This document shows, in pieces, positions 61,457-64,000 of a stretch of 64,000 nt of DNA; position 1 is the first letter of the stretch, and every line of letters begins with the position of its first letter. This DNA comes from Diplosphaera chodatii (taxonomy: Eukaryota; Chlorophyta; Trebouxiophyceae; Prasiolales; Stichococcaceae): NCBI GenBank assembly GCA_032358165.1, contig JAALGY010000021.1, positions 1,550,001 through 1,614,000 of the forward strand, in the 5' to 3' direction. Both the position numbers and the translations under genes were made by a program. The notes below the pieces were generated by a model. The model did no database searches, had not been told where the DNA came from, and worked only from the letters and a program-made list of their open reading frames with translations.

Positions 61457-63046
61457 TCAGTTCCCCGGTATGAGAATTGACATGTGTCCATCAGCAATGA
61501 TCTCCTCGAGATTGAGCTCCTCCACCTCGCCACTGGTGTATTGCACCCTGCGCAGTGCAAATCACAGTGACCATGTAGGTGTCATGTTGTGTGGATGGTT
61601 TGCAAGTACTTCGATCTGCCAAAGGAGATGCAGAGTGTTGGCATGAACCTCAAACACGAAGGGGGCGGATATCCACTCACTTGGCAGTCCTGGCTTTGGG
61701 GTTGACGCTATGCACCTCGATGAGGTACCACTTCTTGTCGTCTGGCCAATAAAGCTGCAGGCACGTGTCGCCAGTGATCAACTTCAGGAGGCCTCATGCC
61801 GGCGTGCAAGATCCTTACAACGCGTGCACTGGCACCGCTGAGCATGGTCTCAGAACAGCAGAAGCACCGGTTGTGGCGCTGGCAGATGAAGATCAGCATG
61901 TTGAGCTCGGCTGGCATACCTCTGCACGTCGCCCCTTCAGGTTGACACTGATGTCTGCCTGCGTGGCTAGCCGCCCGCTGGCCAGCGGCGCCTCGCTCGA
62001 CTGCGCCACCCCCGTCATCTGCTCCTGCAGTGCATCCCAAGACAACTGTTTGACTGCAAAGGGAAGGCAGAGTCCCACTCCAGGGTGCACCACCTGACAG
62101 TTTAGTGAGAGCGGAACCTCTCACAACCGCTGTTCGGGCAGGGGGTGGAGCAGCGCACTGGCTCCTGGCGGTTGCGGCCCATGCCGCCGACGCCGCCTCG
62201 GCTGGCCTGGCCCATGACTATCTCGAACAGCGTCGGGCCCTGGTTGATCGTCTTGAACAGGCGCGCCCGGCCTGCGGCGTCGAGGCGCGCACCTGCAGGA
62301 TGGTGATTGGGGATGATCAGCTTGGGACCTTGAAGACTGCGCACCGCCTGCTTGGCGCCTGCGAGACATGCACACTCTCGGAGGCATGACATGCCTCCTG
62401 TCCCACCGTAGTAGAAGGCCACACTCAGCAGCCAGGCGTCGGAGTGCACCGCCACCAGTGCCAGCCAGTCGCGCTGCTGCATGCCATTGCGGGCGAAGTT
62501 GATGCCAAGGCAGGGCTCCGGCAGCTCCGCCGGCACCTCCTCTGCTGGCAGGTCCACTGCCCAGGAGCCGTCCGACTCACCTGCCGAGGGCAGACACCCC
62601 GGCATGGGATGAATGGTGAGCTGCAATGAGGGGTTCAGCACAAGGGCAGGCATCAGCTGGCGCATGTTGCAGCACCGAGATCGACCGGACACACGCAACC
62701 CGCGCGTACATGCACGATGAGCCGTGCAGGCTGAAGAGCGTTGCGCACCATAAAGGCACAGGTTTTCGCGCTCCGGATCGCATTGGTCGTAGAGGTCGTC
62801 GACCTCTGCAGAGCACAACACGACCCTGAGCATCCGCACAGGCTGCGCGGCCCATCTTCGTGTCATGATGTTCTCTCTTGAGAAGCAGTCGTTAAGAGTA
62901 AACGGTGCAGCGGATGGCTGCGAAGCAGCTTGGGCAGCGGGATGGGGCAGGTGCGACAGATCACCTTCTGTGAGTGCGCGGAGCAGGCCCCTGAAGCGAT
63001 TCTGGTAGTCTGTGTAGATCTGATCCGCAGTGCGCGGATGGTCCAT
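61457..63046 (-). CDS. ALFIN-domain protein with C-terminal Tudor-like domain instead of a PHD finger (258 aa)
   Basis: Seven exons, 63046-62965, 62805-62749, 62580-62407, 62292-62128, 62053-61920, 61754-61681 and 61547-61457, have matching phases throughout and sum to 777 nt. Residues 1 to about 140 are the plant ALFIN-like domain: HPRTADQIYTDYQNRFRGLL, DQCDPERENLCLYG, WAVDLPAEEVPAELPEPCLG, INFARNGMQQRDWLALVAVH, RLFKTINQGPTLFEIVMG. Known ALFIN-like proteins end in a PHD finger that reads H3K4 methylation. None is here: after a linker with a few Cys (RCSTPCPNSG) the protein continues into GRRAELYWPDDKKWYLIEVH and VQYTSGEVEELNLEEI, which look like a Tudor domain of the MSH6/PDS5 kind (WP-D-KKWY then YxxGExExL). 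The end is SILIPGN, TGA at 61457. The weakest joint is the donor at 62128 (G|GTTGTG). Likely nuclear chromatin protein. Confidence 0.8.
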
Positions 63047-63676
63047 GTCCCAGCCGTCCGCGCCAAGCCGAAGTAGCTGGCCCGTGCTCTGACAAGAACA
63101 GACTCCGAGACCGGCAGTCGCCGCAGTTCTGACTGCCAAGGCGCGGCGATACGTGACGAGCTCTCCAACGATGAAGACTTAGGTCAGCCTCCAGTAGCCC
63201 GCCTTGCCGGTGTTGTACGTCCAGGGCTGCTGCGGCTGGGGATGCACACAGCACCTACAGCACCGCTGATCGGGCGAACAAACGAAGAGCGCCTGTGCGA
63301 GCCTTGATGGAGCGTGAAACGTATGGAGATTGCGACAATGGTAGCATTAATCTGGCGCGCAGATATGGCAATGGCCACACTGGCACGCGGGCAGGTGGCA
63401 TTCCCCGTGCGTGATGCATGCTGTGCTGTAAGACCCTGGTGCAGTCGGTCATAATTGCAGTTGCAGCAAGTGTGTAGCATCCATCGCGACTGCCAAAGCA
63501 AGTGTAGAGCTGGCCAACTGTGTGAGGCACATCGAGCACTGGTCCATTGTTGCAACAAGGCAGGCTGGTGCCGCAGCGTGGGTGGCGCACTGCACACTAG
63601 TTCAGCGGTGTAAACCTCACATTTGAGCGCCCTTTTGACTGACAGAGACTAAGCATAGAGTCAACAGCACACTGTG
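63047..63676. other. 5'-5' region between the ALFIN-domain and BOLA3-like genes
   Basis: About 630 bp between divergent starts, holding both promoters. A possible short exon (63179-63245) is listed separately; otherwise nothing supported. Confidence 0.4.
63179..63245 (-). other. Possible short terminal exon (weak)
   Basis: After a TGTAG/G acceptor-like site the minus strand reads VHPQPQQPWTYNTGKAGYWR then LT and a stop at 63179. The composition looks protein-like (Trp, Tyr, Gly), but I found no upstream exon that joins in phase and do not recognise the product. Confidence 0.18.
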
Positions 63677-63936
63677 ATGTCTCTCACGGGCCTAACGAGG
63701 CAGGCAGCGGGCCTGGCATGTCGTCTGCGGCAGGGGTGTCATCATGAGCCGGCATGGCGCAGCCTTGCAGGAACAATGTCAACAACATCGGCAGGCGACT
63801 CTTCAGCACAGCGAGAGCAGGAAATCGCAGACTTGTTACGATCCAGGATGCCAGGCACCCAAGCAGTGCGGGTGCTAGACACTAGCGGCGGTTGCGGCTC
63901 GATGTATCGCATCGAAATTGTTGCTGAGGAGTTCAA
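63677..63936 (+). CDS. BOLA3-like protein, first exon (cut by window end)
   Basis: BolA-family proteins work with monothiol glutaredoxins in iron-sulphur cluster delivery; BOLA3 does so in mitochondria. The ATG at 63677 opens MSLTGLTRQAAGLACRLRQG, a basic Ala/Leu-rich leader that fits a mitochondrial signal. The BolA domain begins at about residue 45: REQEIADLLRSRMPGTQAVR, then VLDTSGGCGSMYRIEIVAEE, which contains the SGGCG loop with the conserved Cys. The exon ends at a GTAAGC donor at 63937 in phase 2, just where other BolA proteins continue toward their conserved His region; that part lies beyond 64000. The in-frame GTG one codon earlier is not needed. Confidence 0.88.
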
Positions 63937-64000
63937 GTAAGCTGCCTCGCACTATCCGCTGATATGCTTCCGAATCTGGGTTCATGCATCATACGTTCCT

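Follow-up and report, generated by a model that had tools for sequence, protein, structure and literature searches.

Plant ALFIN-LIKE proteins (AL1-7) carry an ALFIN domain and end in a C-terminal, H3K4me3-binding PHD finger (C4HC3), and AL proteins are described as this ALFIN plus PHD combination in PMC6599366 and PMC3900384. The C-terminal Tudor domain of Arabidopsis RDM15 is a reader of monomethylated lysine 4 of histone H3 (H3K4me1) and is named together with the Tudor domains of PDS5C and MSH6 (PMC13361950). In the algal ING proteins VcING2 and CrING2, Tudor domains take the place of the PHD fingers (PMC6599366, 2019). We analyzed a window of 64,000 nucleotides from the green alga Diplosphaera chodatii (contig JAALGY010000021.1, positions 1,550,001 to 1,614,000), which is part of contig C19 in the surveyed assembly of 85.6 Mb and 55 contigs. 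Its minus strand encodes, at 63046..61457, a protein with an ALFIN domain followed by a predicted Tudor domain (ALFIN-Tudor). The protein resembles AL1-7 in its ALFIN domain, in its similar length, and in having a PHD-bearing paralogue in the same genome, but it has a Tudor barrel instead of the PHD finger. No title or abstract on ALFIN-Tudor was found among the papers listed in searches of open-access literature. The Tudor-for-PHD replacement was known already in the two algal ING proteins; a conserved ALFIN-Tudor family and the use of one module on both families appear to be new.

Residues 6-131 were identified as ALFIN (Pfam PF12165, E 7e-62), which bears out the N-terminal domain named in the first-pass annotation of this DNA. 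The AlphaFold2 model of P0001, a 91% identical relative, matched the crystal structure of the AL2 PAL domain at 1.3 Å. No PHD finger was found in the window protein by the Pfam scan. Four motif patterns likewise found none when the gene and the 6 kb downstream of it were read in three minus-strand frames, nor in the second gene copy, on contig C25, with 5 kb downstream. As a positive control, these patterns detected the PHD finger in the ALFIN-PHD genes that were found on contigs C17 and C45, and the earlier statement that no PHD Cys/His set is present therefore holds. The protein pieced together from C17 contained both Pfam domains, ALFIN and PHD; an exon-wise search with PF00628, which can miss split PHDs, had missed both genes. 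Because PHD-bearing paralogues exist in the same genome, the presence of Tudor for PHD is, by sequence comparison, an exchange inside one gene family. The coexistence of the two forms and the overall length, similar to that of plant AL proteins, also agree with the earlier view of a domain swap rather than an addition. Among the matches listed, both forms were present in the named taxa Coccomyxa viridis, Myrmecia bisecta (with a truncated ALFIN-PHD model), Trebouxia sp. C0010, Raphidocelis, Monoraphidium, Tetraselmis GSL018, Chromochloris (code Chrzof1), and Tetradesmus.

The ALFIN-PHD partner showed a variation of its own. A zinc-ligand His of the PHD finger was counted in 121 ALFIN-PHD sequences (P0139-P0254 and five others). 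It was kept in 68, mostly land plants by name, and replaced by Asp in 23 and by Cys in 18, the named ones being chlorophytes; 12 of the 121 were outside this pattern, including Tetraselmis with His kept. The C17 gene has Asp. Thus, the PHD finger of the partner seems to be altered in many green algae too.

On the tail of the window protein, Pfam gave only sub-threshold Tudor-type matches, and for P0020, P0108, P0121, and P0133, too, the Tudor was matched by no Pfam model at the threshold. The Tudor-like C-terminus claimed earlier was borne out by structure prediction on P0001, in which residues 161-236 had block-mean confidence values (pLDDT) of 94-98 and formed a predicted five-strand barrel (strands 182-187, 192-202, 207-212, 217-221, and 231-234). 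Outside the ALFIN domain, its best solved match was the RDM15 Tudor (PDB 7DE9), with a root-mean-square deviation (rmsd) of 1.2-1.3 Å and a TMt of 0.87. A profile search with the tail also placed RDM15 first (E 4e-5), followed by SMN (E 0.03), and it retrieved TDRD3. The aromatic cage of RDM15 (W616, Y623, and Y641) and its H3R2-contacting E647 correspond to W187, Y194, Y212, and E218 of the window protein, and we infer methyl-lysine binding by the tail from the cage residues. ALFIN-Tudor is unlike RDM15 in its host protein, in the equivalent of D643, which is usually Thr or Ser, and in an added GRLLT-DI extension and EGHMSLI strand, which were common only to algal ING tails among the sequences compared.

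A database search yielded 1849 matches, of which the best 120, many without an organism name, were classified. The same tail was found in other chlorophyte ALFIN-like proteins: 111 of the 120 had ALFIN followed by the Tudor motif and were PHD-free by the motif test, and several of these were MMETSP transcript products. The other nine were PHD forms or truncated or odd models. The equivalents of W187, Y194, Y212, and E218 were kept in 111, 110, 109, and 110 of the 111 family members, respectively. A second ALFIN-Tudor copy of Raphidocelis subcapitata (P0106, beside P0082) has WR for the cage-Tyr WY and looks like a decayed reader. The 111 included Mamiellophyceae and Chloropicon as well as Trebouxiophyceae and Chlorophyceae. 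The named genera were Coccomyxa, Myrmecia, Trebouxia, Apatococcus, Symbiochloris, Auxenochlorella, Ostreobium, Ulva, Tetraselmis, Chloropicon, Dunaliella, Haematococcus, Raphidocelis, Mantoniella, Bathycoccus, and, by taxid, Dolichomastix. No streptophyte ALFIN-Tudor was recognized among these best 120 of 1849 matches, many of them unnamed. The first-pass annotation had suggested a new architecture in green algae: the ALFIN-Tudor architecture is real, but it is not peculiar to this alga, and the spread of the family in Chlorophyta rules out a lineage-specific novelty. Database records hide the swap, since no Pfam model reaches the threshold on the Tudor domains scanned and the labels name ALFIN or PHD ("Alfin N-terminal domain-containing" and, for Chloropicon primus, "alfin-like PHD finger protein").

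The gene lies on the minus strand, as claimed before, and its seven exons give a single 238-residue open frame, with GT...AG at 6/6 introns. Its features are as follows.

62965..63046, minus strand: exon 1, start codon and residues 1-27, start of the ALFIN domain; phase 0 start, donor GTGATC, kept in C25
62749..62805, minus strand: exon 2, ALFIN; from the model and the C25 comparison
62407..62580, minus strand: exon 3, ALFIN core; 98.3% identity to C25
62159..62292, minus strand: exon 4, end of the ALFIN domain and start of the linker; best end 62159, not 62128
61920..62024, minus strand: exon 5, linker, GRLATQADI extension, and start of the Tudor; best start 62024, not 62053
61681..61754, minus strand: exon 6, Tudor (YWPDDKKWYLIEVHSV) with cage residues W187 and Y194
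61457..61547, minus strand: exon 7, end of the Tudor (cage Y212 and H3R2-type E218) and stop codon
62213..63031, minus strand: ALFIN (PAL) domain, residues 6-131, exons 1-4; Pfam PF12165
61457..62009, minus strand: shared tail module, residues ~155-238, GRLxT-DI extension and predicted Tudor barrel, exons 5-7

Seven exons in one frame had been proposed before and stood, but the earlier length of 258 residues is disfavored relative to 238. In that longer version, exon 4 runs on for 31 nt to 62128 and exon 5 begins 29 nt earlier, at 62053; the frame is kept, and 20 residues are added. The stretch past 62159 is open but has no protein-level conservation and is missing from the relatives. An open counterpart of the extra stretch in the C25 copy has 32 and 34 nt (66 nt, 22 residues); identity over the stretches is 77% and 57%, and the extra peptides differ (VRCSTPCPNSVKQLSWDALQ vs VRCFTPPAHERVLKGGSLVAIQ). 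The relatives P0001-P0003 cross the exon 4/5 joint without the extra residues, the transcript-derived P0003 having its own longer linker. As the extra peptides are unlike between the copies and the relatives read across the joint without them, 238 residues is the best-supported main form on present comparisons. The 258-residue form may occur as a splice variant, since the frame is kept and C25 has an open counterpart.

All seven exons of the C19 gene recur in the C25 copy, with the same order, phases, and boundaries. Over 717 coding positions, 41 nucleotide changes were counted, 37 of them in codons with the amino acid unchanged, and the proteins differ by four amino-acid changes. Nonsynonymous (dN) and synonymous (dS) divergence were 0.007 and 0.26 (dN/dS ~0.03), and 0.012 and 0.55 for the Tudor part alone; exons were 90.5-98.3% identical and introns 57-82%. 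From dN/dS and from exon versus intron identity between the copies, we conclude that both halves, ALFIN and Tudor, are in one frame under purifying selection. These data also bear on whether two adjoining genes were mis-joined, with the ALFIN frame ending after exon 4 and the Tudor exons belonging to another gene. The exon 4 frame does run on to a stop at 62102, exon 5 contains an in-frame ATG, and the gene was predicted from genomic DNA. However, the C25 copy repeats the exon order, phases, and boundaries, P0001 and the transcript-derived MMETSP proteins hold both parts in one frame, and both parts are present in 111/120 best matches. A two-gene origin or artefact is therefore extremely improbable, and we regard it as ruled out by the C25 copy and the relatives.

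We hold it to be probable, though by no means certain, that ALFIN-Tudor is a conserved chlorophyte ALFIN-LIKE paralogue whose Tudor domain reads H3K4 methylation, most likely the mono- or dimethyl state, and recruits ALFIN partner complexes. By analogy with Arabidopsis AL proteins, the PAL domain would dimerize and dock to RING1/BMI1 of PRC1 and to SWR1, which AL proteins reportedly recruit for H2A.Z deposition, according to a 2025 paper. In Arabidopsis, the PAL-containing N-terminus of AL6 interacts with RING1a and with other ALs (PMC3900384; structure 5XVW), and AL5-7 are recovered together with SWR1 on purification (PMC6695207). RING1 and BMI1 homologues are present in algae, except O. lucimarinus (PMC6599366). 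The Tudor domain would grip the H3 tail, with R2 held via Glu218 and methylated K4 via Trp187, Tyr194, and Tyr212. Through the exchange, the same effector would then be directed to lower H3K4 methylation instead of to H3K4me3, the state that the PHD paralogue is expected to read. The exchange of one methyl-mark reader for another had been proposed for this gene; a reader does appear to have been exchanged, but both readers may be aimed at H3K4, in different methylation states, and not at two different marks. Because promoters of silent Chlamydomonas genes carry H3K4me1 (PMC6952782), the likeliest output would be gene silencing or the upkeep of low-expression chromatin. Docking of ALFIN machinery on low-K4-methyl H3 tails is suggested by the AL partners, by this mark at silent promoters, and by plant MSH6, which has a Tudor for H3K4me1 (PMC12292046).

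Several observations weigh against this proposal. D643 and D645 of RDM15, the acidic residues that select monomethyl-lysine, correspond to S214 and E216 of the window protein, so that only the second is acidic. Across the family, the D643 equivalent is Thr or Ser in 91/111 and Asp in 11/111, and is changed in 100/111 with one gap included; the D645 equivalent is Glu or Asp in 97/111. As the D643 equivalent is mostly lost, the methyl state read by ALFIN-Tudor is uncertain. The soybean Alfin1-like PHD protein GmPHD6 is reported to recognize H3K4me0/1/2 (PMC13361950), which blurs the contrast with PHD forms, and thus low-methylation reading by the ALFIN family would not need a Tudor. No binding, expression, or partner data on any ALFIN-Tudor protein were found in the literature searched. 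The next profile match, SMN, has a methylarginine-reading Tudor, and Spindlin-1 chains, some of which hold H3K4me3 peptides, tie RDM15 by VIA-align Z (up to 8.3 vs 8.6), with an rmsd of 2.2-2.6 Å vs 1.3 Å for RDM15.

The tail might thus be a real Tudor that binds something else: dimethylarginine, as SMN does, methylated H3K36 in the manner of PHF1, or H3K4me3 in that of Spindlin. The SMN and TDRD3 profile matches, the PHF1 and Spindlin chains in the fold lists, and the changed D643 equivalent speak for it, but by sequence RDM15 matches clearly better than any other, its rmsd is the lowest of the Tudor matches shown by VIA-align, and it shares its H3R2-contacting Glu with nearly the whole family. 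We consider another ligand unlikely, while keeping it well in view.

After the two ALFIN-Tudor loci, the next best genome matches to the window Tudor were on contigs C21 and C35, where an ING domain lies upstream and the same Tudor module stands at the end. Querying with the pieced ING protein brought up 20 matches, of which 18 were new (P0121-P0138); P0075 and P0078 have an ALFIN domain and belong to the 111. The tail was present in 16 of the 18, and 14 of the 16 had an ING domain in their precomputed annotation; the other two were plant-type ING-PHD. The shared module of ~75 residues (GRLLT-DI extension, WPDD..WY, GETEELDL, and EGHMSLI) could be aligned in ALFIN and ING tails. A hidden Markov model (HMM) built from 45 ALFIN tails, including that of the window, detected 17/17 ING tails at 100-123 bits and RDM15 at 31 bits, and matched 0/17 shuffled tails at E up to 100. 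The predicted tail of P0121 (373 residues, with low-confidence stretches in the middle) had the same strand order and lengths as the ALFIN-Tudor tail. VcING2 and CrING2 are therefore like the window protein in nearly the same tail module, as scored on other algal ING tails, and unlike it in their N-terminal domain, which is ING, not ALFIN. A plant ING query returned only the two ING-Tudor loci at E<0.001, with no ING-PHD among the matches in this genome, although an exon-wise search can miss split PHDs. On the basis of these alignments and scores, one Tudor module is the replacement of PHD in two H3K4me3-reader families, ALFIN and ING.

The sharing of the tail also raises the idea of a protein-protein or nucleic-acid contact module common to ALFIN and ING, for example in one complex, that would not read histones. 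Conservation beyond the cage, in the GRLLT-DI extension and the EGHMSLI C-terminus, and the same tail on two unrelated N-terminal domains would fit such a role. However, few positions vary as little as those of the cage and the H3R2-type Glu, and both host families end in a histone-reading PHD in plants, which makes a pure contact module rather improbable. H3K4 reading by the Tudor remains our preferred interpretation.

An intron near the third strand was considered as proof of a shared origin of the two tails, but this was unsupported: the introns are close, and their phases differ (phase 2 within a Lys codon in ALFIN; phase 0, ~5 bases upstream by alignment, in ING). The free tree of the tails required two changes, and the ING tails formed one clade in 0/200 bootstrap trees; held as one clade, they scored better than the free tree and were not rejected (p-AU 0.80). 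Transfer may have gone from ING to ALFIN or the reverse.

The ALFIN-domain tree (95 rows, 127 columns) contained 51 Tudor forms (49 of the 111, the window, and C25), 43 PHD forms, and one odd form. A branch with support of 97/87 had 45 Tudor forms on one side, those with names being from core chlorophytes and Chloropicon; 28 PHD forms of core chlorophytes made a separate group (100/98). Six Tudor forms, Mamiellophyceae where named, stood with a few PHD forms near the streptophyte PHD forms. The free tree had three label changes, with all Tudor forms on one side in 0/200 bootstrap trees; constraining them together cost 1.6 log units (p-AU 0.455), so one clade was not rejected. The pattern fits an exchange that preceded the chlorophyte radiation or fell early in it, and more than one event is also possible. 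In addition, P0117 and P0120 have related ALFIN domains (100/97), followed by PHD in P0120 and by a different Tudor-like tail in P0117, which scored only 21 bits with the ALFIN-tail profile; P0117 is possibly another PHD-to-Tudor exchange.

We tentatively propose, as a broader scenario that we think has the odds against it, that one Tudor module replaced PHD on both ALFIN and ING in early Chlorophyta, so that both effector systems read low H3K4 methylation. If so, PRC1/SWR1 via ALFIN and acetylation or deacetylation complexes via ING would all read this state, and ALFIN-Tudor and ING-Tudor would be the sought readers of H3K4me1, a silent-euchromatin mark of green algae. The two proteins are named candidates for such a reader of the mark of silent Chlamydomonas genes. 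Many green algae have kept ALFIN-PHD beside ALFIN-Tudor, with the same Tudor module on ING, and a natural, old swap of readers on fixed effector domains allows the contribution of the reader to be asked about directly.

The ALFIN-Tudor (C19/C25), ALFIN-PHD (C17/C45), and ING-Tudor (C21/C35) genes are each present on two contigs. With these paired contigs, the ALFIN-Tudor dS, and the divergent introns, the genome looks like a hybrid, or one with an old duplication or very diverged haplotypes. Upstream of the ALFIN-Tudor gene, a divergent open frame at 63659..63940 on the plus strand ends in VLDTSGGCGSMYRIEIVAEEFK and is reminiscent of BolA-like proteins. A 54-residue piece of it had no Pfam match, and the stretch is partly conserved in C25.
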